Source: Lachnospiraceae bacterium (GTDB lineage: Bacteria; Bacillota; Clostridia; Lachnospirales; Lachnospiraceae). Taken from it: a stretch of 64,000 bases of DNA. Shown piece after piece: positions 34,466 to 52,062 of the stretch. The notes under the pieces are model-generated. The model worked only from the letters and a program-made list of their open reading frames with translations. It made no database searches and was not told the DNA's origin. The position numbers and the translations under genes were made by a program. How positions within the stretch are numbered: the first letter of the stretch is position 1; every line of letters starts with the position of its first letter. The stretch lies in the NCBI GenBank assembly GCA_014804785.1, contig JAAUZD010000026.1, forward strand, positions 395,216 to 459,215, written 5' to 3'.

Positions 34466-35662
34466 ATGGATAAACCTGCAATTTGTGGAGGAACTCCTAT
34501 TCGTGATACGAAGCTATTTTATGGTCATCAGTATATTGATGAAGCAGACATACAGGCTGTAGTGGATGTGCTGAAAAGCGATTTTTTGACCTGCGGACCG
34601 AAAATTGATGAACTGGAGAATAAGCTTTGTCAAATCACAGGAGCGAAATATGCGGTTGTCTGCAGTAACGGGACTGCCGCACTGCATATAGCCTGTCAGG
34701 CAGCCGGGATCGGCGCGGGGGATGAGGTCATTACTACGCCGATTACCTTTGCCGCATCGGCGAACTGCGCTCTGTACTGCGGTGCAAGGCCAGTGTTTGC
34801 AGATATCAACGAAGAGACTTATAATATTGATCCCGATCAGGTGAAGAATCTGACGAATGAGCGGACGAAGGCTGTGGTGGCGGTGGATTTTACAGGGCAG
34901 TCTGTAGAACTTGATGCGTTGCTTGCTCATTGCCGCGAAAATCATCTGGTATTGATAGAGGATGGAGCTCATGTCATCGGAACACGTTATAATGGAAAAT
35001 ATAATGGATCCATAGCAGATATGACTACTTTAAGCTTTCATCCAGTTAAAACGGTGACCGGTGGCGAGGGTGGTGCGGTTTTGACCAATAGTGAAGAATA
35101 CTACCAGAAATTACTTTTATACCGCACTCACGGTATCACTAAGGATCCTCAGCAGATGGAGCATGAGCCGGATGGTCCATGGTACTATGAACAGACAGCC
35201 CTTGGGATGAATTACCGTATGACGGACATGCAGGCGGCGCTGGTAATTACTCAGCTGGACAAGCTGCCGATGTTCTCGAAGAGACGGAAAGAAATTGTAA
35301 AAGCTTATAATGAGGCGTTTTCAAAGCTGCCCCAGATTATTGTACAGAAGGAAATACCAGAGTCAGATACCACGAGGCACTTGTATATTTTAAGACTGGA
35401 TCTGTCACAGCTTAAAATAGACAGGAAGCAGTTTTTTGAGGCGCTGTATGCAGAAAATATCTGTTGTAATGTGCATTATATTCCGACCTATTATTTCCCG
35501 TACTACGAAAAGCTGGGATATAAGAGGGGTATTTGTCCTAAGGCGGAAAAATTATACGAAGAAATCATCAGTCTTCCGCTATACTATGCCATGACAGATG
35601 AGGATGTACAGGATGTGATTGATGCGGTGACGAGAATTGCTGAATACTATCGGGCAGATTGA
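34466..35662 (+). CDS. pseC: PseC-type UDP-sugar 4-aminotransferase
   Basis: 398 residues, DegT/DnrJ/EryC1 PLP aminotransferase. In the pseudaminic acid pathway PseC converts the UDP-4-keto sugar made by PseB to UDP-4-amino-4,6-dideoxy-N-acetyl-beta-L-altrosamine. N-terminal PAICGGTPIRDTKLFYGHQYI, CSNGTAALHIA, PITFAASANCALYCGARPVF, the PLP-lysine block LSFHPVKTVTGGEGG and MNYRMTDMQAAL are characteristic. pseG, pseI and pseF in the same cluster confirm the pathway. pseB is not in the window. Confidence 0.9.
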   Translation: MDKPAICGGTPIRDTKLFYGHQYIDEADIQAVVDVLKSDFLTCGPKIDELENKLCQITGAKYAVVCSNGTAALHIACQAAGIGAGDEVITTPITFAASANCALYCGARPVFADINEETYNIDPDQVKNLTNERTKAVVAVDFTGQSVELDALLAHCRENHLVLIEDGAHVIGTRYNGKYNGSIADMTTLSFHPVKTVTGGEGGAVLTNSEEYYQKLLLYRTHGITKDPQQMEHEPDGPWYYEQTALGMNYRMTDMQAALVITQLDKLPMFSKRRKEIVKAYNEAFSKLPQIIVQKEIPESDTTRHLYILRLDLSQLKIDRKQFFEALYAENICCNVHYIPTYYFPYYEKLGYKRGICPKAEKLYEEIISLPLYYAMTDEDVQDVIDAVTRIAEYYRAD

Positions 35663-35733: not shown

Positions 35734-36762
35734 ATGAAGCTGAGCGTGATTGTACCCGTTTATAATATGGCGGCGCAGGGCAAGCTTGCTTGGTGCCTTG
35801 ATTCGCTGGTAAATCAGACGATATCAGATTATGAGATTATTGCGGTGGATGACTGTTCAACAGATGACTCACTGGAAATATTGCGCAATTATGAACAAAA
35901 ATATCCGGATAAAGTTCGTGTAATTGCCTCACCTGTCAATAAAAAACAGGGCGGCGCCAAAAATCTGGGACTGGAAGAGGCTAAGGGCGACTGGATTGGG
36001 TTCATTGACAGCGATGACTGGGTGACTCCTGACTTCTATGAAAAACTGCTCACCCGCGGGGAGGAGACCGGAGCGGATATCGTGGGGTGCGACTATCATC
36101 TGACTCATGAACATAGTATGGAGATTGGTCAAGTAGTACACAATAATACCCAGTCTCAGGCAGGAATCCTCACAAAAGAAAAGTACAGGTCACTGATTCT
36201 GGATAGTGGAAGCCTGGTGGTAAAGATCTATAGACGTCATATCATTTTTGACTTTCCAAACCGTTTCCCAGAACAGATTTTTTACGAAGACAATGCAATC
36301 AGCAATTCATGGATGCTGCGGGCGAAGCACTTTGAGTATTTGGAGGAGCCTCTTTATTACTATTATCAGCATGACACCTCTACCGTGCACACAATTACCA
36401 AAAAGCGCTGTGAGGACCGGATGGAGGCAGCCAGAGTCATGGTCAGGGAGGCGGAGCAGTTCGGCTATCTTGATGAGTATTATCCTGAAATAGAAAGCAG
36501 CTTTACGACGCTGTTCTATGTCAATACCCTGTTCTCCTACATGGTAGGCGTAAAGAAAAAGGAATATAGTTTTTTGAAGACCCTTGGCAGGGAGATGCAG
36601 GAAACCTTTCCCAGATTCATGGAAAACCCCTATTATCAGGAGCGGGTTCATGAGGAGGAGCGCAGGCTGATTAAAATGCATATGAAGTCTACTCTGTATT
36701 TCATGCTCTATTATAAGGTGTTGTGGGCATACCGGAATTTCAGGAAAAGGCTTCAAAGATAG
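35734..36762 (+). CDS. GT2 glycosyltransferase
   Basis: 342 residues, no membrane span. N-terminal GT-A fold with LSVIVPVYNMA, CLDSLVNQTISDYEII, VDDCSTDDSLEIL, KKQGGAKNLGLEEAKGDWI and the metal-binding FIDSDDWVTPDF. A C-terminal helical region with EDNAISNSWML acts in acceptor recognition in related enzymes. Similar GT2 proteins add hexoses or N-acetylhexosamines to polyprenyl-linked or teichoic-type glycans. It is between pseC and the ATP-grasp gene on the same strand and probably builds the same glycan. Confidence 0.88.
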   Translation: MKLSVIVPVYNMAAQGKLAWCLDSLVNQTISDYEIIAVDDCSTDDSLEILRNYEQKYPDKVRVIASPVNKKQGGAKNLGLEEAKGDWIGFIDSDDWVTPDFYEKLLTRGEETGADIVGCDYHLTHEHSMEIGQVVHNNTQSQAGILTKEKYRSLILDSGSLVVKIYRRHIIFDFPNRFPEQIFYEDNAISNSWMLRAKHFEYLEEPLYYYYQHDTSTVHTITKKRCEDRMEAARVMVREAEQFGYLDEYYPEIESSFTTLFYVNTLFSYMVGVKKKEYSFLKTLGREMQETFPRFMENPYYQERVHEEERRLIKMHMKSTLYFMLYYKVLWAYRNFRKRLQR

Positions 36763-36866
36763 GACTTTGAGTAAAACTGTAGGCAGAAGATTTTTAAGTA
36801 TAAGGCAGGGAAGACCCACTGTTGCAGGCGGGGGGTTGGCGCGTCGGAATAAGGATAGGAATCATA

Positions 36867-38066
36867 ATGAAAGCAGCAATCATAGGTGCCAGCGGGGAAG
36901 CTGTCCATACAATTGAAAAGGCTCATGAGTATGGACTTGAGGTGGTGGCATTGGATGGAAATCCCGGGGCAGAGGGACTGAAAAGTGCAGATAAACCGTT
37001 GATTATAGACATCTCAGATGAGGCGGCAACGATAGAGACGCTTCGGCAGGAAAAGCCGGATTTTGTGCTGACGGTGCCGATTGGAAGGTATTTAACTACT
37101 GTAGGAGCTGTCAATGATGCGCTGGGACTTCCAGGAATCAGCAGGGAGATAGCCGTTCTATGTACGGACAAATTTCAATTTCATCAAAGGTTGAGTACAC
37201 AGGGGCTGCGGAACTGTCGGTGTTATGCCATTGAAGGGAAGAACATCTTAAATGCAGATCAAAGCATTTCGCAGAAACAAAAGATTGCTCCTGGTCAGCT
37301 TCAGCTTACTTATCCGGCAATCTTGAAACCAAGGTATGGTTCAGGGAGCAGAGGAATTTTTATGCTCACACGTACGGAAGAACTGGAAGAGGCATTGCAG
37401 GCGATAGGGGAAGAATCTTATGTGCTGGAAGAATGCATTGCAGGTGAGGAATACGGTGTGGATGGGGCTGTGACAGAGGATGGATTTTGTATGATTCTGC
37501 TTCGCAGGAAAGAAAATACACCCCCTCCTGCCAGACAGGCAGTGGGATATACTTCTATTTTGCCGTCGGAGGGATTCTGGCAGCAGGTACAGGATCATAT
37601 GAAGAAAGTCATTGCGGGTCTGGGGATGAAGGAGTGCCTTCTGCATGCAGATCTCATACAAGGAGAGGAGGGACCCTTTGTCATAGAGCTTTCTGCAAGG
37701 CCCTCCGGACATAATCTGCACAATCTGTTCACACCTTTGGCTGTGGGAGTGGATATGGCGGAGCAATATATCAGATATCGGATGGGGCTTTCTTACAGCT
37801 TTGTACCGGAAGAAACGAAGTCTATGATGATTCACTACTTTGATATGCAGGGAAAAGTTACAAATATTCCCGCCAGAAGGCAGGTGGAAGAGGTCTTGGA
37901 TGCGCAGCTTGCAGCATGGAGTTGTAATATAAGAAAAGGAGAGGAATTATCTCCTGTGTCGGACGGACATTCTGTTATGGGGCGCGGATATTTTGTGCTG
38001 AAGGGCAGGGACACGCCTTTCCTGCGCAGCCAGGTTGAAGTCGTCAGAAAATTATTTTTTAGGTAA
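36867..38066 (+). CDS. ATP-grasp carboxylate-amine ligase
   Basis: 399 residues from ATG 36867 (AGGATAGGAATCATA upstream; the track's TTG is rejected). Pre-ATP-grasp Rossmann part (KAAIIGASGEAVHTIEKAHE), the ATP-binding lysine region YPAILKPRYGSGSRGIFML, CIAGEEYGVDGAVTE, and metal-ligand end GPFVIELSARPSGHNLHNLF. Such enzymes form an amide or acyl-phosphate from a carboxylate and ATP. It is not part of the standard Pse pathway. Its place between pseC and pseG suggests that it acylates an amino sugar or supplies a modified side chain. It ends three bases from the convergent pseG stop. Confidence 0.85.
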   Translation: MKAAIIGASGEAVHTIEKAHEYGLEVVALDGNPGAEGLKSADKPLIIDISDEAATIETLRQEKPDFVLTVPIGRYLTTVGAVNDALGLPGISREIAVLCTDKFQFHQRLSTQGLRNCRCYAIEGKNILNADQSISQKQKIAPGQLQLTYPAILKPRYGSGSRGIFMLTRTEELEEALQAIGEESYVLEECIAGEEYGVDGAVTEDGFCMILLRRKENTPPPARQAVGYTSILPSEGFWQQVQDHMKKVIAGLGMKECLLHADLIQGEEGPFVIELSARPSGHNLHNLFTPLAVGVDMAEQYIRYRMGLSYSFVPEETKSMMIHYFDMQGKVTNIPARRQVEEVLDAQLAAWSCNIRKGEELSPVSDGHSVMGRGYFVLKGRDTPFLRSQVEVVRKLFFR

Positions 38067-38069
38067 GGA

Positions 38070-39206
38070 TTAGAGATTTTGTAAGGCATGGGCAATGCGC
38101 AGGGCGCCGTTGCCATCGACTAAGCTGCTCATACGATCATGGGCAGCTTTTCTTTTGCTGTAAGAAGCATCGGAAGAACCGGAGTTTTCAGCTATAAAAT
38201 GAAAGATTTCCTGAAATATTTGGTGGGAAGATGTACGTATATCACCGGCACAGGGAATTGCGCCCGCCGCATCAAATGCACTGGCGCTGTCAACCTGGTT
38301 ATCTGCCATGGTGAAGCTGATGGAGGGAATGCCAAGGGCGCAGAGTTCATATAAAGTGGTGCCGGCAGCAGACACTGCTAAGTCACATTTGCTCATAAGA
38401 GATGCCATGTCACTCACATTTTCGTAGAGTTCTAAAAAAGAAAATTTATTGGCAAGCAGTTGGAGTTCTTTTTTATCCAGACTCATCCTTCCAACCACAA
38501 TATGAAATTTCAAATCTCTGTCCTTTACAGGGGATGGGAGAATAAATGTATCAGTAAACAATTTGATGATGTTTAGGCAAAAATGACAGGGATCGCTTCC
38601 TCCTGTAGTAATCAGGATATCAGATGCACTTTTCCGCACAGAGATTCGGCGATTTTGAAACTGATTCCGAAGAGGGGTATAAGAGGCGCCCAAAAGGAGT
38701 TGCCCTGCATTTTGATAAGTGGATTGGTAGGAAGATATCTTGTCATCAGGAATCACATCATAATTGATGAGCAGATCTACAGGATAATCAAAGAGCTGCA
38801 GATCGTCCATGTATGCTGTTTTTACCAGTGGCCTTAAAGCGGACAAATACTTCTCAGTGACATAATAGGAGTCAAGAAGGTAAAGCGGTTTCACGAAGGC
38901 GGAATGCGGACCGTAGGAAGTGCCGGAAAGCCTGGAAGTATGGGTGGAAAGCAAGGCGGTCACTTCGGGAAGTTCCTGATCGAGATGATCAAAGGCGGCA
39001 GTTTTTAATTGGATAAATGTAAATCCCGTATGCATATCTGAAATTTCCTTCAGCAGACGGCAGCTTTCCCCGTCAGAAACAAGAAAGCATATTTTCATAC
39101 CTAGGCTCTGACAGGCAAGGGCAACAGAAAAACAGCGTACCAGATGTCCGGATGCTATTTTGGCGTTGCCGTCCGTTCGGATATAAATCAGTCGAGAAGT
39201 TTCCAT
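38070..39206 (-). CDS. pseG: PseG, UDP-sugar hydrolase of pseudaminic acid synthesis
   Basis: 378 residues. It removes UDP from UDP-2,4-diacetamido-2,4,6-trideoxy-L-altropyranose before condensation by PseI. N-terminal IYIRTDGNAKIASGHLVRC is the family signature (the conserved His is in GHLVRC). The GT-B/MurG-like C-terminal half has LITTGGSDPCHFCLNII, DLAVSAAGTTLYELCALGIPSISF and ADNQ. It overlaps the pseI end by 19 bases and is the last gene of the leftward pseF-decarboxylase-pseI-pseG operon. Confidence 0.9.
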   Translation of the reverse strand: METSRLIYIRTDGNAKIASGHLVRCFSVALACQSLGMKICFLVSDGESCRLLKEISDMHTGFTFIQLKTAAFDHLDQELPEVTALLSTHTSRLSGTSYGPHSAFVKPLYLLDSYYVTEKYLSALRPLVKTAYMDDLQLFDYPVDLLINYDVIPDDKISSYQSTYQNAGQLLLGASYTPLRNQFQNRRISVRKSASDILITTGGSDPCHFCLNIIKLFTDTFILPSPVKDRDLKFHIVVGRMSLDKKELQLLANKFSFLELYENVSDMASLMSKCDLAVSAAGTTLYELCALGIPSISFTMADNQVDSASAFDAAGAIPCAGDIRTSSHQIFQEIFHFIAENSGSSDASYSKRKAAHDRMSSLVDGNGALRIAHALQNL

Positions 39207-40240
39207 TGAAGCGGCGTTCCTTTCTTTAAAAATGTTTTTGCCTTTTTCCCAAGCACTTCCTCATAATACATGGTATGAAGTCCGTTGCCTGGGCGGATAG
39301 AACGTATATTGTCACATGTCAGTTCTTCGCCTTTGGAAATATCCTTTACCACGAACAGGGAACGGGAACCGCCATGTTCCAGTTCCTGCGTGGGGGTAAG
39401 ACGGTATTCCCGGCTTCCCAGCGCTTTTTCCATAATTCTGATGTCCTTTACCATCTGTGAAAATTCTTCCGGCTCCATGGAAAAAGCGCCATCCGGTCCG
39501 CCGTCGGACCGGCGCAGGGTAAGATGCTTTTCGACCATTTTTACGCCCAGGGCGACAGAGCCGGCAGAGACAATGCTCCCCAATGTATGATCGGAGATAC
39601 CCACCAGACAATCATAGGTTTTGGCTAAAGTTGGAATGACGTTTAAATTTACATCCTCGTAGGGTGTAGGGTAAGAAGATACACATTTTAAGAGGAGAAT
39701 GTCTTCGTTTCCTTCTTCTCTGCAGACCGAAAGCGCCCGTTCAATATCTTCCGGATAGGCGATGCCGGTGGCAAAAATCATGGGTTTATGCAGTTTCGCA
39801 ATTTCCCTAATCAGGGGAATATCGTTGATTTCGTAAGAAGCAATTTTGTAAGCAGGTACATTCATTTTTTCTAGGAAATCCACGGAAGTAAAGTCAAAAG
39901 GGGAAGAAAAGCATTCCATCCCCAGTTTCTCTGCCTCTTCCTTCAGTCTCGGCTGCCATTCCCATGGGGTATAGGCCTGCTCATAGAGTTTATAAAGAGT
40001 GGTTCCGTCCCAGATGGTTCCTTCCTTGATCTGAAAGCAGGAATCCTCACAATCGATGGTAATCGTATCTGCCGTATAGGTCTGCAGCTTTACTGCATCT
40101 GCGCCGGCTTCTTTGGCAGCATGAAGAATCTCCACAGCCCGTCCGTAATCTTGATTATGATTAGCAGATAACTCCGCCACGATGAACACTGGGGAATGTT
40201 CATTGATAACATGTGAACCGATTTTAATTTCTTTATTCAT
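39188..40240 (-). CDS. pseI: Pseudaminic acid synthase
   Basis: 350 residues from ATG 40240, behind GGAGGATTTGT; the track's upstream extension is rejected. It condenses the 6-deoxy-diacetamido sugar with phosphoenolpyruvate. NeuB-type TIM barrel with VFIVAELSANHNQDY, GADAVKLQTYTADTITID, SSPFDFTSVDFLEKMNVPAYKIAS, GISDHTLG and VEKHLTLRRSDGGPDGAFS, then a C-terminal antifreeze/SAF domain (SLFVVKDISKGEELTCDNIR). The DGPDG-type and TLRR features fit PseI rather than NeuB or LegI, and pseG/pseC support this. Confidence 0.9.
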   Translation of the reverse strand: MNKEIKIGSHVINEHSPVFIVAELSANHNQDYGRAVEILHAAKEAGADAVKLQTYTADTITIDCEDSCFQIKEGTIWDGTTLYKLYEQAYTPWEWQPRLKEEAEKLGMECFSSPFDFTSVDFLEKMNVPAYKIASYEINDIPLIREIAKLHKPMIFATGIAYPEDIERALSVCREEGNEDILLLKCVSSYPTPYEDVNLNVIPTLAKTYDCLVGISDHTLGSIVSAGSVALGVKMVEKHLTLRRSDGGPDGAFSMEPEEFSQMVKDIRIMEKALGSREYRLTPTQELEHGGSRSLFVVKDISKGEELTCDNIRSIRPGNGLHTMYYEEVLGKKAKTFLKKGTPLQWKLLD

Positions 40241-40321
40241 ACAAATCCTCCATGTCAGAGCCTTATGCTGCCCTGAGGGTGTTGCCGCCTGTCTAAATGA
40301 CATTGATGGCTGAATTGTTAC

Positions 40322-41524
40322 TTAGTGTTCTATATAATTTTTCTGCATATATTCGTCGTTGGTCCATGCATCCCTTGCAGTGAAAATAGAGCCATCCTCA
40401 TGTTCCACATAAACGGCAGGAAAATAATTAATGAACAGCGGATTGAGGCACATGGTGTATCCGCCTGCCGTGTCGTAAATAATTTTATCACCGGGTTTCA
40501 GAGAAATATCATCTGTTATTTTAAATAATCTGTCATATTCCATGCAGGTGGCGCCGCAGACCCATTGATGGGATTCGATGCTTCGGACGGAAGTGTCGGA
40601 ACTATATTCAATGTGATGCGGGTAAACATGCCTTGTCACCAGCGGGTTCAAGTTGGTGCGGCTTCCGTCTGTCACCACAAATTTCCGGTTTCGGATATCC
40701 TTTACATCAATTACGGAGGTGACGAAGGTGGATGCCCTTGAAATCAAAGAGACACCGGGCTCTGCGATCAAAATAGTCTTTTGAGGATCAAAGCGGACCG
40801 AAAGTTCTTTGCAGATTTCGGCAAAGTAATCGCGGTAATCCGGCTTGTCATCCCTGCCGCCAAAATAACCGCCGCCCATGTCCACATAGTCCAGAGAAAG
40901 GTCATACTCCTCTGCGATGGTGACAGCCATTTTTGCCAACGCCCCAAATACCTGTACGGTACGGGATTTGGTGGAGGAATGGAGATGGAGACCTGATACC
41001 CATACATTTGGCAGGGCAGAGAGCCTGTCAATGGCAGATTTTAGGACGCCGTTTTCGTAGCAGTAACCAAATCTGCCGCCCTCTTCTTCCGCAAGTATTT
41101 CTCCGGGACAGATAGCAGCAAGATCACAGTTGACGCGGAGGCCAATTTTGAAACGTCTGTTAGGATAAAGTACACTTAGTTCTTCCATCCAGTCAAGTTC
41201 ATAATTGGAATCCAGATTGATATAGCCGCCTGCAAGCAGCACCATTTCAAAAACTTTCTTGTCTTTGATGGGACCATTGTAAATAATCTGTTTTCCCGAA
41301 TATCCCAATCTGGTTACCAAATCGTATTCTGTTTTCGACACCACTTCTGCATAGAATCCTTGCTCTTTCAGATAAGTGAGAAGCCAGGGCAGGGAATTTG
41401 TCTTTACGGAGTAGCCAATAATATAATTGCCCCAGTTTTCACTAAGGGATTCCTTTAAAAGTGTGATGTCATAAAGTAAATCTTTTTCCTTTATTCTGAA
41501 AAAGGGTGTTTGGAGCTGTTTCAT
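40322..41524 (-). CDS. LysA-fold (type III) PLP decarboxylase inside the pse operon
   Basis: 400 residues from ATG 41524, behind GGGAGGTCATGCA, overlapping the pseF stop (ATGA). Alanine-racemase-type barrel with the PLP lysine in IIGYSVKTNS, LHLHSSTKS, the glycine loop DMGGGYFGG, EPGVSLISRA and C-terminal WVCGATCMEYDRLF with the catalytic-type Cys. The diaminopimelate decarboxylase EPGR motif reads EPGV here, so substrate handling differs. BtrK-like enzymes decarboxylate carrier-bound amino acids. Translational coupling to pseF and the nearby ATP-grasp ligase suggest sugar or side-chain modification. It is not needed for known Pse synthesis. Confidence 0.85.
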   Translation of the reverse strand: MKQLQTPFFRIKEKDLLYDITLLKESLSENWGNYIIGYSVKTNSLPWLLTYLKEQGFYAEVVSKTEYDLVTRLGYSGKQIIYNGPIKDKKVFEMVLLAGGYINLDSNYELDWMEELSVLYPNRRFKIGLRVNCDLAAICPGEILAEEEGGRFGYCYENGVLKSAIDRLSALPNVWVSGLHLHSSTKSRTVQVFGALAKMAVTIAEEYDLSLDYVDMGGGYFGGRDDKPDYRDYFAEICKELSVRFDPQKTILIAEPGVSLISRASTFVTSVIDVKDIRNRKFVVTDGSRTNLNPLVTRHVYPHHIEYSSDTSVRSIESHQWVCGATCMEYDRLFKITDDISLKPGDKIIYDTAGGYTMCLNPLFINYFPAVYVEHEDGSIFTARDAWTNDEYMQKNYIEH

Positions 41525-42225
41525 TGCATGACCTCCCGGTTCTTCAGTAAATTGTATTTTATCTCCGCTAATTCCCAATCCTCCGGTGTATCGATATCCT
41601 GTACTTCAAGTTCGGAAAGGACAAGAGGGAGAAGATTTTCCACATCGGTGGTTCCGGCTTTTAAAAATGCCTTTGTCCGGCAGGCATAAAACTGACCGCA
41701 GTCATGGTAAATTTTCTGAAGGTCCTGACTACGTGCTGTGGCATATTCCGGGAACTGTCTTTCTATCCATCCATTCTGGGTGATGATAAGACCGCGCTGG
41801 GGGGGATAAGAAAAGGGGACAACGGGCATGACGGAGTCTGCTGTGTCCAAAAGTTCCATGGCGCTTTTCAGCCGGGTGCCGCTTAAGAATGGCGCAGTAG
41901 GGTAAATACAGCAGAAGGTGTCAAATTCCTGTCCGGTTTCCTTATATGCTTTTAGAACTTCCATTATAACATCATCGGTGGAAGCATAATCTCCGGCAGT
42001 TTCTTTGGAGCGGAAAAAGGGGACGCTGGCTCCAGCTGATTTTGCAATTTCTGCGATTTCCTTATCGTCAGTGGAGACCATGATTTCATCAAAAACAGCC
42101 GATTGTTTTGCTGCTTCTATGGAATAGCAGAGGATGGGTTTTCCGCAAAAATTCTTGATGTTTTTTCGGGGAATCCGTTTACTGCCTCCCCTGGCAGTGA
42201 TGATAGCCAGACTTTTGCCCTTCAT
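41521..42225 (-). CDS. pseF: CMP-pseudaminic acid cytidylyltransferase
   Basis: 234 residues. It activates the nonulosonic acid with CTP. LAIITARGGSKRIPRKNIKNF is the CMP-sugar synthetase signature, with CYSIEAAKQS, VSTDDKEIAEIA, CCIYPTAPFLSG and FSYPPQRGL, the last typical of PseF against NeuA. First gene of the leftward operon, with the decarboxylase start overlapping its stop. A promoter lies just upstream at 42264-42291. Confidence 0.9.
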   Translation of the reverse strand: MKGKSLAIITARGGSKRIPRKNIKNFCGKPILCYSIEAAKQSAVFDEIMVSTDDKEIAEIAKSAGASVPFFRSKETAGDYASTDDVIMEVLKAYKETGQEFDTFCCIYPTAPFLSGTRLKSAMELLDTADSVMPVVPFSYPPQRGLIITQNGWIERQFPEYATARSQDLQKIYHDCGQFYACRTKAFLKAGTTDVENLLPLVLSELEVQDIDTPEDWELAEIKYNLLKNREVMQ

Positions 42226-42291: not shown

Positions 42292-42366
42292 GCAAAAATC
42301 TATGATAATATTGTTTCGGAAGAAGGGACTAAGGGGTCTGGTTTCACATTGAAAGGTGAGAAAAAG

Positions 42367-43446
42367 TTGAAAAAACGTATTTATATTTGTCATACCTATT
42401 ATCATGTGTATATTTCGTGTTTGAAGGAGTTGAATCTGCCGGTGGACGGCAGGGGGCAGGCTGATCTTATGCTTAGTTCTATGTCCACCGATTTTGGAAA
42501 TTTGAAGGAGCGGGCAGAAAGGCAGGGGCTGTTTGGACAGGTGATAACTTATGATGAAAAGGAGGAAGGATTTTTCCCGGAGCTTTTAAAGTATCATAAA
42601 AACAGAGGGAATATTGTGATCAATATGCTTTCCAGAATCAAATATACCAAGATGATGGGGAAGCTACAGGAGCCTTTTGTTCCGGTGGACTTGCGGGCAT
42701 ATGAGGATATTTATGTGTTCTGCGATTCGGATCCGATTGGGTATTATTTGAATACACACAAAATTTATTATCATGCTCTTGAGGACGGGCTTGACTGCAT
42801 CCGCTACTATGATACGGCGAGGTATGATAATCGTGGACATTTTAAGCTGAAAACATGGATGGCGTCCAAAAATCTTATTTTTATTCAAAATGGTTATTCT
42901 AAATATTGTCTGGATATGGAAGTCAACGATATTTCCGTATTGCCCTACCCCTGCCCTAAGTATATCGAAAAATCCCGCAAGGAACTTGCAGCGAATCTTG
43001 GTGAGGCAGAGAGAGAAATACTAGTATCCATTTTCATAGAAAACAGGCAGGAACTGGAAAGAATACTTTCCACGGGCACAGGACATGAGCACAAAGTGCT
43101 GGTACTTTCAGAACCCCTCTGCGACCTTGAAACAAGAAAACAGATTTTCCGGGACATCATTGAAGAGTACGGTTCCATCGAGGGGCACAAAGCACAGATT
43201 TTAATCAAACCTCACCCCAGAGATGCACTTGATTACAAAGCGCATTTCCCGGAGCATATCGTTTTAGACGGAAAATTTCCAATGGAGGTCCTGAATGAAA
43301 TTAAAGGACTGATTTTTGACCGTGTAGTCACTGTATTTACCGTCCCGGAAGCCATCGCCTTTGTCAAGGAAAAAATCTTCCTAGGCGAAGATTTCATGGA
43401 CAAGTACGAGTCTCCGGAAATCCACCGCCAAAACGAGCAAATATAA
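42367..43446 (+). CDS. Sialyltransferase-like protein, candidate pseudaminyltransferase
   Basis: 359 residues, TTG start behind AAAGGTGAG. N terminus KKRIYICHTYYHVYISCLKE resembles GT52/polysialyltransferase starts. It carries the two motifs shared by bacterial sialyltransferases of GT38, GT52 and GT80: the D/E-D/E-G motif as YHALEDGLD (~138) and the HP motif as ILIKPHPRDAL (~280). A later TVFTVPEAIAF may be the Ser/Thr site. In a cluster that makes CMP-pseudaminic acid, the natural donor is CMP-Pse. The gene's last ~450 bases are C-rich and G-poor on the coding strand. Divergent from pseF. Donor and acceptor are inferred. Confidence 0.7.
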   Translation: MKKRIYICHTYYHVYISCLKELNLPVDGRGQADLMLSSMSTDFGNLKERAERQGLFGQVITYDEKEEGFFPELLKYHKNRGNIVINMLSRIKYTKMMGKLQEPFVPVDLRAYEDIYVFCDSDPIGYYLNTHKIYYHALEDGLDCIRYYDTARYDNRGHFKLKTWMASKNLIFIQNGYSKYCLDMEVNDISVLPYPCPKYIEKSRKELAANLGEAEREILVSIFIENRQELERILSTGTGHEHKVLVLSEPLCDLETRKQIFRDIIEEYGSIEGHKAQILIKPHPRDALDYKAHFPEHIVLDGKFPMEVLNEIKGLIFDRVVTVFTVPEAIAFVKEKIFLGEDFMDKYESPEIHRQNEQI

Positions 43447-43603: not shown

Positions 43604-45361
43604 ATGAACAAAATTTTAAAAAAATTAATGGTGCTGCTTGACCAGCGGCAGAAAAGAATTATGATAATTCTGGTTATAATGATGCTCATAGGAGCCGTAC
43701 TGGAAACCGCAGGTGTGGGAATGGTCATACCAGTGATGCAGATGGTGTTGGATGAGAATGCGGTAGCCAAAAATGAGTATCTGCAGATGCTCTGCGATAT
43801 TTTACACATTGCCCATGATGACAGCAGAACTTTGATTATTATCACAATGCTGGCGCTCATCATGGTTTTTGTAGTGAAAAATATCTTTTTGTTCTTTCAG
43901 CAGAAGGCGCAGCTTAAGTTTGTCTACACAAACCAGTTCGCCACATCCAGAAGAATGATGATTAATTTTATGCAGCGTCCCTATGAATATTATTTGAATG
44001 CAGATACCTCGGTGATTCAAAGAAGCATTACTTCCGATGTGAATAATATGTATGGGCTGATTTTGTCACTTTTGCAGCTCTTTAGTGAGGCAATTGTATT
44101 CATATGCCTTGTAGGGGTCAGCTTTGTGACAGATATATGGATGACCATTACGGTGACAGTGGTATTGGTTGCGGCACTTGCAGTCATTAAGTGTTTCTTG
44201 AAACCCATTATGAAAAAGGCGGGAGAGGAAAACCAGGATTATTATAGCGGATTGTACAAGTGGATCGATCAGTCTGTTATGGGAATCAAGGAAATCAAGA
44301 TTGCCAATAAAGAAAATTATTTTATCAATGAATATGCCAAATGCGGAGCCGGATATGTAAGTGCGGTGCAGAGATATAATCTTTACAATGCAACCCCCAG
44401 ACTTTTGATTGAAACCCTTGCCATAGCCGGTATGATTTTTTATATGATGTTTCAACTGTTAAGGGGAACTGCGGTGACGGATATCATGCCCCAAGTGATG
44501 GCGTTGGGAGTGGCGGCGATGCGTCTAATTCCGTGCGCCAACAGAATCAACAATCACCTGACCTCTATCTCTTACTTCGAGCCTTTTTTTATGGGGGTAA
44601 GCGATAACCTTCAAGAGGAAATCAGGGATGAATCAATTGATTATGATGAAAACACCTATCAGAAGAAAGTGGAAGTTGAAAAGCTGAACATTGAAAAGAA
44701 GATTGAGCTTAAGGATATTGTTTTCAAGTATCCCAATACAGAGGTGTTTATTTTCAATCATGCCAATATGGAGATACCAATTGGACAGGCGGTAGGAATC
44801 GTGGGAACTTCCGGTGCGGGTAAGACGACGGTGGTGGATATTCTGCTTGGACTTTTAAAAGTGCAGGAGGGGCAGATTCTGGCTGACGGTTTGGAGGTCC
44901 GGGAACATTATCAGTCATGGCTCAAGAACATTGGTTATATTCCTCAGACGATTTTCATGATAGATTCCACCATACGCAAAAATGTGGCTTTCGGCGTTGC
45001 AGATGAAGATATTGATGATGAAAAGGTGTGGCGGGCGCTTAAGGAAGCCCAGTTGGATGAGTTTGTAAAAGGACTTCCGGAAGGACTCGACACCAGCATT
45101 GGGGAGAGAGGCATCCGCATCTCCGGCGGACAGAGGCAGAGAATCGGCATTGCCAGAGCATTGTTTGAAGATCCGGAAGTGCTTGTCTTAGATGAGGCGA
45201 CTTCTGCGCTTGACAATGAAACGGAGGCAGCAATCATGGATTCCATTAACCGGCTCCATGGAAAGAAAACGCTTGTTATTATTGCTCATCGTCTGCAGAC
45301 CATTGAAAAATGTGATATGGTCTATCGGGTAGAGAATGGAAAAGTAACTAGAGAACGATAA
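43604..45361 (+). CDS. PglK-like ABC flippase/exporter
   Basis: 585 residues: six membrane spans (about 20-310) fused to an ATPase domain (about 355-585) with Walker A GTSGAGKTTVVD, signature ISGGQRQRIGIARAL and Walker B VLVLDEATSALD. The membrane domain (GAVLETAGVGMVIPVMQMVL, RPYEYYLN, GIKEIKIANKE) resembles PglK/WlaB, which flips lipid-linked oligosaccharides, more than drug exporters. In this cluster it is the only candidate for moving the finished glycan across the membrane, since no Wzx/Wzy is visible. It starts a long rightward series of glycan genes. Confidence 0.85.
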   Translation: MNKILKKLMVLLDQRQKRIMIILVIMMLIGAVLETAGVGMVIPVMQMVLDENAVAKNEYLQMLCDILHIAHDDSRTLIIITMLALIMVFVVKNIFLFFQQKAQLKFVYTNQFATSRRMMINFMQRPYEYYLNADTSVIQRSITSDVNNMYGLILSLLQLFSEAIVFICLVGVSFVTDIWMTITVTVVLVAALAVIKCFLKPIMKKAGEENQDYYSGLYKWIDQSVMGIKEIKIANKENYFINEYAKCGAGYVSAVQRYNLYNATPRLLIETLAIAGMIFYMMFQLLRGTAVTDIMPQVMALGVAAMRLIPCANRINNHLTSISYFEPFFMGVSDNLQEEIRDESIDYDENTYQKKVEVEKLNIEKKIELKDIVFKYPNTEVFIFNHANMEIPIGQAVGIVGTSGAGKTTVVDILLGLLKVQEGQILADGLEVREHYQSWLKNIGYIPQTIFMIDSTIRKNVAFGVADEDIDDEKVWRALKEAQLDEFVKGLPEGLDTSIGERGIRISGGQRQRIGIARALFEDPEVLVLDEATSALDNETEAAIMDSINRLHGKKTLVIIAHRLQTIEKCDMVYRVENGKVTRER

Positions 45362-48487: not shown

Positions 48488-49618
48488 ATGATTCGGTTCA
48501 ATGTACCGCCCTACACGGGAAGAGAAATAGAGAATATACAGAAGGCAATAGAGAATATGCACATTTGCGGCGACGGAATATTTACCAGCAAATGCAGTGA
48601 ATATTTGGAGAAGACTACCGGGACTGCAAGATGCCTTCTGACTACTTCCTGCACCCATGCGCTTGAGATGGCAGCACTTTTGTGCGATATTAAGGAAGGG
48701 GATGAGGTGATCCTCCCCTCTTATACCTTTGTCTCTACAGCAGATGCTTTTGTACTGCGTGGGGCAAAGGTGGTGTTCGTGGATATCAGACCGGACACCA
48801 TGAATATAGATGAAACACTGATTGAAGATGCGATTACGGAAAAGACCAAAGCGATAGCCCTGGTTCACTATGCAGGGATAGCCTGTGAAATGGACGTCAT
48901 TATGGACATTGCCAGAAGGCATCACCTTATGGTAGTGGAAGACGCTGCCCAGGCAATCATGTGTACTTATAAGGGACAACCCCTTGGCACAATTGGGGAT
49001 TTTGGCTGTTACAGCTTCCATGAGACAAAGAATTTCAGCATGGGAGAAGGAGGCGCACTTTTAATCCGCGATGCGAGATATATTGAGGATGCAGAAATCC
49101 TGCGGGAGAAAGGGACGGACAGAAGCAAATATTTCAGAGGACAGGTGGATAAGTACCGGTGGCAAAATTTTGGCTCTTCTTATCTTCCCAGCGACATGAA
49201 TGCAGCATATCTCTATACCCAGCTTGAGATTGCTGATGAAATCAACGATGCCCGTCTTGCAAGATGGAATCAGTATTATGAATTATTATCCCCGCTTGCG
49301 GAGACGGGGAAAATAGAACTTCCGGTGGTGCCAGAGGGATGTGTGCACAATGGACACATGTTCTATATTAAGACGAAAGATATGGAGGAACGCACCCGAT
49401 TGATTGCATTTTTAAAGGAAAATGATATTTTTTCTGTATTCCATTATGTACCGCTTCATTCGGCGCCTGCCGGAATCAAATTCGGCAGATTTCACGGAGA
49501 AGACAGGTATACCACTAAAGAGAGCGAGAGATTGCTGCGGCTTCCCATGTTCTATCAGCTGACTGGGGAGCAGAGCGATTATATTGCAGGAAAAGTAAAG
49601 GAATTTTATGGATATTAG
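48488..49618 (+). CDS. wecE: WecE/RffA-type dTDP-sugar 4-aminotransferase
   Basis: 376 residues, DegT/DnrJ family but distinct from PseC. MIRFNVPPYTGREIENI, CTHALEMAALLCDI, PSYTFVSTADAFVLRGAKVVF, the PLP-lysine block YSFHETKNFSMGEGGALLI and LPSDMNAAYLYTQLE match WecE, which makes dTDP-4-amino-4,6-dideoxygalactose (Fuc4N) from the 4-keto sugar. A GNAT acetyltransferase two genes on could finish Fuc4NAc as WecD does. The rml genes that supply the dTDP-sugar are not in the window. Consensus GGAGG ribosome site. Confidence 0.88.
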   Translation: MIRFNVPPYTGREIENIQKAIENMHICGDGIFTSKCSEYLEKTTGTARCLLTTSCTHALEMAALLCDIKEGDEVILPSYTFVSTADAFVLRGAKVVFVDIRPDTMNIDETLIEDAITEKTKAIALVHYAGIACEMDVIMDIARRHHLMVVEDAAQAIMCTYKGQPLGTIGDFGCYSFHETKNFSMGEGGALLIRDARYIEDAEILREKGTDRSKYFRGQVDKYRWQNFGSSYLPSDMNAAYLYTQLEIADEINDARLARWNQYYELLSPLAETGKIELPVVPEGCVHNGHMFYIKTKDMEERTRLIAFLKENDIFSVFHYVPLHSAPAGIKFGRFHGEDRYTTKESERLLRLPMFYQLTGEQSDYIAGKVKEFYGY

Positions 49619-51434: not shown

Positions 51435-51495
51435 GGGAGACGATTGAAAGGCTCATTCATGCAGCAGTGTAGAGGCGGTGCATAGGGGTATAGAT

Positions 51496-52062
51496 ATGGA
51501 AATAAGAGACAAAGATAAGAAAACGCGTGTTATAAATGGGGCGGATATTGTACTGCGTCTGATGAAGGAAGAAGATACAGACTTGATTATTAAATGGCGC
51601 AACACAGAGTTTGTCCGCCGGAACTTTATCTATCAGGAACTTTTTACCAGACAGGGACATGAAAACTGGGTAAAAACCATGATTGATACCGGAAGGGTGG
51701 TACAGTTCATTATATTAAGAAAAATGGATGACAAACCAGTAGGAAGTGTTTATTTAAGGGATATTGACAGAACTCACAGCAAAGCAGAATATGGTATCTT
51801 TATAGGGGAAAAAGAGGCTCTTGGGAAAGGATACGGCACTCAGGCAGCCCGAATGATGATAGAATATGCTTTCCACGAAGAGGGACTTCATAAATTGATG
51901 CTGCGGGTGCTTGCAGAGAATGTGCGTGCAAGAAGAAGCTATGAAAAGGCAGGATTTGTCAGGGAAGCCCATTTAAAGGATGAGGTTTTTCTGGATGGAC
52001 GTTATCAGGATGTAATTTATATGGCGGTCATAAATGATAAGGGACAGGAGGCTTTTGCGTGA
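51496..52062 (+). CDS. GNAT acetyltransferase (PseH- or WecD-like)
   Basis: 188 residues from ATG 51496 (GTG 51478 is an alternative). GNAT fold with IVLRLMKEEDTDLIIKWRN, the acetyl-CoA loop GEKEALGKGYGTQAARMM and ENVRARRSYEKAGFVREA. The pathway genes nearby require two N-acetyltransfers: PseH for the pseudaminic acid route and WecD for Fuc4NAc. This is the only GNAT in the cluster and could be either. It could also be a RimJ-type protein acetyltransferase, which is less likely here. The next gene's GTG overlaps its stop. Confidence 0.75.
   Translation: MEIRDKDKKTRVINGADIVLRLMKEEDTDLIIKWRNTEFVRRNFIYQELFTRQGHENWVKTMIDTGRVVQFIILRKMDDKPVGSVYLRDIDRTHSKAEYGIFIGEKEALGKGYGTQAARMMIEYAFHEEGLHKLMLRVLAENVRARRSYEKAGFVREAHLKDEVFLDGRYQDVIYMAVINDKGQEAFA

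Follow-up and report, generated by a model that had tools for sequence, protein, structure and literature searches.

Introduction

Pseudaminic acid (Pse) is a bacterial sugar that resembles sialic acid. The Pse transferases described so far are few: Maf, the GT118 enzyme KpsS1 and a number of TagB-like candidates. Maf proteins transfer nonulosonic acids to flagellin, as in Clostridium (PMC13317340), and KpsS1 of Acinetobacter baumannii is a characterised transferase of capsule Pse5Ac7Ac, a retaining relative of KpsS/KpsC (PMC12887879). TagB-type proteins of Tannerella and Bacillus (SpsB) are candidate Pse or Leg transferases; in the sections of PMC7439481 that deal with them, SpsB is reported to carry DEG and HP motifs and not to be needed for Leg transfer, and the passage naming GT52 describes no Pse transferase of that family. 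The titles and abstract openings of the literature searched on pseudaminic acid and Lachnospiraceae mention no such transferase either.

Bacterial sialyltransferases are characterised by two motifs, D/E-D/E-G and HP, which are essential or important for activity (E153 and H278 in NmB-polyST, D141 and H311 in PmST1); in PmST1, D141 is the proposed general base and H311 lies on the CMP phosphate (PMC2169525). The (K/R)XHP form of the second motif binds cytosine and phosphate, the Lys usually contacting the cytosine (PMC12887879). The protein described here has PF07922, D/E-D/E-G, KxHP and a predicted GT-B-type fold in common with the GT52 sialyltransferases (Neisseria Lst, Haemophilus LsgB and SiaA, GBS CpsK), but differs from them by its predicted donor, CMP-Pse instead of CMP-Neu5Ac, and by a T-V pair in place of (S/T)(S/T). 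It shares its proposed role with the TagB-type candidates, which belong to a TagB-domain family and not to GT52.

A GT52 protein with a predicted sialyltransferase-like fold

The window, a stretch of 64,000 nucleotides from a Lachnospiraceae bacterium, contains an intact open reading frame of 359 amino acids at 42367-43446 on the forward strand, closed by a TAA stop. Its start is a TTG with a Shine-Dalgarno-like AAAGGTGAG just 5' of it, and many homologues start with ATG at the aligned position; a second possible in-frame TTG lies at 42349. As originally predicted, it is transcribed away from pseF (41521-42225, reverse strand), with 141 bases between the two genes. A promoter/terminator scan returned nine promoter-like sites versus 5.0 (sd 2.4) in shuffles, and one terminator-like site versus 1.8.

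The original prediction had read the protein as sialyltransferase-like and named an HMM search and structure prediction as checks. Both agree with it. The Pfam GT52 profile PF07922 matched above its gathering score (47.7 bits, cut-off 26.1, 1.6e-12) and was matched by all 51 relatives (E <= 0.1); the protein is the sole GT52 protein of its genome. The GT38 polysialyltransferase profile PF07388 scored lower, just above its cut-off (25.8 versus 23.3 bits). An AlphaFold2 model built from a 51-sequence alignment was confident (pLDDT 87.4, pTM 0.86) and GT-B-like, and its best ten Foldseek matches in the PDB were all bacterial sialyltransferases of GT38 or GT80 (E 8e-8 to 3e-6), with TM-scores of only 0.45-0.54 to these structures. 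The best match was 5wcn and the polysialyltransferase 5wc6 was also found, both of GT38; the others included 2ihj (PmST1), 4v39, 4r9v and 2zwi, all of GT80. The GT38 enzymes (5wcn, NmB-polyST) thus provide the best fold match and share both motifs, but the protein scores better with GT52 and nothing points to a capsule polysialate system. Sequence searches of the PDB gave nothing usable, just one weak GT80 alignment across the HP region, so that the family assignment depends on Pfam and fold. NCBIfam holds no model for this protein, and a viral structure library held nothing close to the predicted structure. At E <= 10 the sequence matched neither the MptE-like domain of Maf (PF01973) nor PF05159, the KpsS/KpsC-type profile; a KpsS1-like enzyme would share the predicted donor with this protein, which is without a Pfam match of that type.

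The two motifs are where the original prediction had placed them, near residues 138 and 280: ALEDGL spans residues 137-142 and IKPHPRD residues 280-286 (KPHPRD, 281-286). EDG (residues 139-141, 42781-42789, forward strand), the predicted catalytic base region by conservation and by the NmB-polyST and PmST1 data (PMC2169525), directly follows a strand at 135-138 in the model, and KPHP (residues 281-284, 43207-43218, forward strand), predicted to bind CMP (PMC12887879, PMC2169525), overlaps the end of a strand at 277-281. In 51 homologues of 61-89% identity, D140, G141, K281, H283 and P284 are invariant; residue 139 is E in 49 of the 51 and E or D in all. C-terminal of HP lies a further conserved motif, FPMEVLN (residues 304-310, 43276-43296, forward strand), in which F304, P305, M306, E307 and N310 are invariant and which matches in position the P-x-E-x-L of other GT52 proteins. 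The distance from the D of EDG to the H of KPHP is 143 residues, versus 125 in NmB-polyST and 170 in PmST1. Taken alone the motif pair is only suggestive, because [DE][DE]G with an HP 90-180 residues further on arose in 3.7% of 20,000 shuffled versions of the protein, or in 0.34% when KxHP was demanded; the motifs are nevertheless above chance because they are invariant down to 61% identity and because Pfam, fold and gene context concur.

The gene lies in a pseudaminic acid cluster

The genes around the transferase encode most of a Pse pathway. On the reverse strand, pseF (CMP-pseudaminic acid synthetase; TIGR03584, 287 bits, cut-off 205.7) is followed by a LysA/FslC-like PLP decarboxylase (40322-41578; PF02784/PF00278, below NCBIfam cut-offs) that may modify a Pse precursor, the pseudaminic acid synthase gene pseI (39188-40303; TIGR03586, 476 bits, cut-off 340) and the UDP-sugar hydrolase gene pseG (38070-39206; TIGR03590, 158.4 bits, cut-off 153.6). 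On the forward strand lie the aminotransferase gene pseC (34466-35662; TIGR03588, 465 bits, cut-off 423.5), a GT2 glycosyltransferase (35734-36762; PF00535, 2.6e-36), a candidate maker of the acceptor glycan, and an ATP-grasp ligase (36822-38066; PF13535) possibly ligating an amino acid or acyl group to the sugar. PseC, PseG, PseI and PseF are thus all above their NCBIfam cut-offs. Downstream of the transferase, also on the forward strand, are a PglK/MsbA-type ABC exporter (43604-45361; NF050066, 355 bits, cut-off 1000, hence related to that family and not a member), a candidate glycan flippase; a WecE-type aminotransferase (48488-49618; TIGR02379, 618 bits, cut-off 435) of the dTDP-Fuc4N type, for another sugar of the glycan; and a GNAT acetyltransferase (51478-52062), either PseH or a Fuc4N acetyltransferase, which barely exceeds the PseH cut-off (TIGR03585, 94.1 versus 93.1 bits). 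PseB is encoded elsewhere in the genome (539 bits). With these enzymes the route to CMP-Pse looks complete, the PseH call being tentative. The genome has three flagellin-domain genes and no Maf/MptE domain protein. Near pseB, the translation of L130:454-4366 (contig C32) has many X from ambiguous or withheld bases.

Linkage to PseI across the family

We examined 397 genomes of the family from 334 genera, mostly one genome per genus. A clear orthologue was present in 51 genomes and a PseI above cut-off in 84, with both in 48; the orthologue group occurs in about 13% of the sampled genera (45/334, two of these with distant homologues only). PseI was found in 48 of the 51 orthologue-bearing genomes versus 36 of the 346 others (odds ratio 138, Fisher p 5e-35, a descriptive value, like the other p-value given here, because the genomes are related and not independent samples). 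Where orthologue and PseI shared a contig (32 genomes), 25 of the pairs were no more than 10 kb apart and 30 no more than 20 kb. Conserved occurrence without nonulosonic acid genes would speak against the proposed function, and PseI was missing from only three of the 51 orthologue-bearing genomes. Two of these have a completeness of 61-67%; in the third, the orthologue lies close to a contig edge, next to pseF and pseC.

A second collection of 80 loci, many from the same species as the family sample, gave a similar picture. PseI or PseF homologues lay within 10 kb in 52 of the 57 loci with full 10-kb flanks, and over all 80 loci the neighbours included PseI in 69, PseF in 67, the PglK-like flippase in 66 and the WecE-type protein in 58. 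One locus (L073) carries on one strand, within 10.1 kb, pseB, pseC, a GT2 gene split into two frames, a gene for 403 amino acids, pseG, pseF, pseI, an ATP-grasp ligase and the transferase orthologue; all five of its Pse enzymes are above NCBIfam cut-offs, and the orthologue is the last gene of what is here a full pseBC-GFI operon. The genomic data therefore support the original proposal that the enzyme transfers pseudaminic acid or a modified form of it, with CMP-Pse or a modified CMP-Pse as the putative donor.

The modified form deserves consideration. One of two different ATP-grasp ligases is present in 45 of the 57 full-flank loci: 19 have the window's type, accompanied by a LysA-like decarboxylase, and 26 have a second type which, when tested in L073 (L073:8738-9961), has an L-amino acid ligase C-terminal domain. 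This second type is directly upstream of the transferase gene in 31 of the 80 loci. The native sugar may thus be aminoacylated or otherwise modified, and the existence of two Pse cluster types with differing ATP-grasp ligases suggests amino-acid-modified pseudaminic acids. As for the acceptor, most loci have the gene for the PglK/MsbA-type ABC protein as the first recognised one downstream of the transferase, which favours a lipid-linked glycan, and the WecE-type aminotransferase is so far above its cut-off that Fuc4N or N-acetylated Fuc4N is probably a further component of this glycan.

The predicted transferase and Maf are complementary at the PseI locus

The transferase shares with Maf its position beside pseI in relatives and its predicted donor, but it has a predicted sialyltransferase-like fold and the two are complementary in distribution, which is further evidence for the proposed function. 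Among the 36 PseI genomes without an orthologue, a protein that matches the Maf/MptE domain strongly (E below 1e-20) occurs in 25, and in 17 it lies within 20 kb of PseI (counts read by hand from gene coordinates). Such an arrangement was found in none of 44 PseI genomes with an orthologue (p 8e-8), nine of which have a strong Maf match elsewhere. The transferase occupies the place where other relatives keep the unrelated flagellin glycosyltransferase Maf. The 36 genomes imply that it is one of several solutions, and since about ten PseI genomes have neither an orthologue nor a Maf domain protein, further Pse transferases are likely there.

Proposed function and alternatives

The gene most probably encodes a cytoplasmic GT52-type GT-B enzyme that moves pseudaminic acid, or an acyl- or aminoacyl-modified form, from CMP to a growing surface glycan. 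From the GT52 match, the fold similarity, the motif invariance and the Pse-pathway linkage we infer a donor, a mechanism, an acceptor and an order of steps. CMP-Pse, or CMP-Pse modified by the cluster, would be the donor, and the growing glycan would receive the sugar. If the mechanism resembles that of PmST1 and NmB-polyST, (i) D140 of EDG would be the general base for the acceptor hydroxyl, (ii) K281, H283 and P284 would hold the cytosine and the phosphate and (iii) the anomeric centre would be inverted during transfer. The glycan would also bear sugars supplied through the GT2 and WecE-type genes before being flipped by the PglK-like ABC protein. Points against this reading are the low TM-scores, the degenerate (S/T)(S/T) pair (see below), the 36 PseI genomes without an orthologue and the fact that GT52, which in CAZy also holds glucosyltransferases, is not exclusively a sialyltransferase family.

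There is some room, though not much, for another role: the protein may be a GT52 enzyme that belongs to this operon and builds the same glycan, but from another donor, such as dTDP-Fuc4NAc, a UDP sugar or CMP-Kdo. The cluster does make other sugars, as the WecE-type aminotransferase indicates, so that some transferase must use them; several other glycosyltransferases are encoded in it, non-sialyl activities are known in GT52 and the phosphate-binding pair is altered. However, the CMP-sialic acid motifs KxHP and EDG are invariant, the closest folds all use CMP-sialic acid, PseI and PseF are steadier neighbours than the WecE-type protein, and it is at the PseI locus that Maf replaces the gene. 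This replacement, together with the three flagellin-domain genes and the missing Maf of the genome, would also fit a flagellin-specific Pse transferase, the functional equal of Maf. We consider this improbable: the cluster has no flagellin gene, the constant PglK-like flippase and the GT2, GT-C and WecE genes point to a lipid-linked glycan, and the nine genomes mentioned above carry both an orthologue and a strong Maf match.

The genome also has a second NeuB/NeuA-type locus, at G000:C43:174000-193000 (L112), with a PtmE-like CBS-nucleotidyltransferase, NeuB, NeuC-like and NeuA-like proteins, about 25-45 kb from flagellin genes. That the transferase serves the legionaminic-like acid of this locus rather than Pse is very improbable, since both the window and most relatives have the gene next to pseF/pseI, genomes with only a non-PseI NeuB are mostly without an orthologue, and the second locus has a candidate transferase of its own, a TagB-like protein with an HP motif (L112:1282-2682; PF04464 slightly under its cut-off).

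If pseudaminic acid transfer is indeed its function, this GT52 enzyme, common among gut Lachnospiraceae and predicted to use CMP-Pse, would be a tool to make Pse glycans and a marker of Pse-decorated surface glycans among commensals, and it would allow a test of how a sialyltransferase fold takes a sugar of inverted stereochemistry.

The T-V pair and distant GT52-like proteins

In GT80 enzymes, an (S/T)(S/T) pair contacts the CMP phosphate. T325-V326 (43339-43344, forward strand) occupies the site of this pair in other GT52/GT80 enzymes, so that only one hydroxyl residue is kept; T325 is invariant and V326 is present in 49 of 51 homologues, residue 326 being V or M in the group. At about 40 residues past HP, the other GT52-like proteins compared read SS or ST (L113, L132, L133) or GTT (L111). 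The CMP-binding motif of the group is thus predicted from sequence to be changed, its phosphate-binding pair being T-V. A phylum-wide search found GT52 matches in only 5 of 399 genomes, too few for a map of donors across the family. Identity to the other GT52 proteins compared, all from the phylum, is about 20%. We regard the orthologues as a subgroup new to GT52, with a donor that is likewise predicted to be new. A more detailed picture is, taken as a whole, rather doubtful: a distinct GT52 subfamily would use CMP-Pse bearing an amino-acid-derived substituent put on by the cluster ATP-grasp ligase, which the LysA-like decarboxylase would trim in the window version; with the T-V pair the enzyme would have adapted to CMP-Pse, whose stereochemistry is inverted, and the PglK-flipped glycan would constitute a Gram-positive route of Pse glycosylation independent of Maf.

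Distant homologues (28-30% identity) and the L113 protein were left out of the orthologue group, because the two top cases (G195 and G221) are in genomes without a PseI above cut-off and L113 is without EDG. The L113 protein (L113:8147-9274) has KAHP and SS but HARG in the place of EDG, and no nonulosonic acid gene was seen along its contig stretch; another distant homologue (L111:12324-13700), in a different nonulosonic acid locus, has both EDG and KPHP. Finally, one genome (G078) carries, as well as its clustered copy, a second copy of 49% identity (G078:C32:249889-250941; L115:7875-8999) that adjoins rpoB/rpoC, away from any Pse gene.
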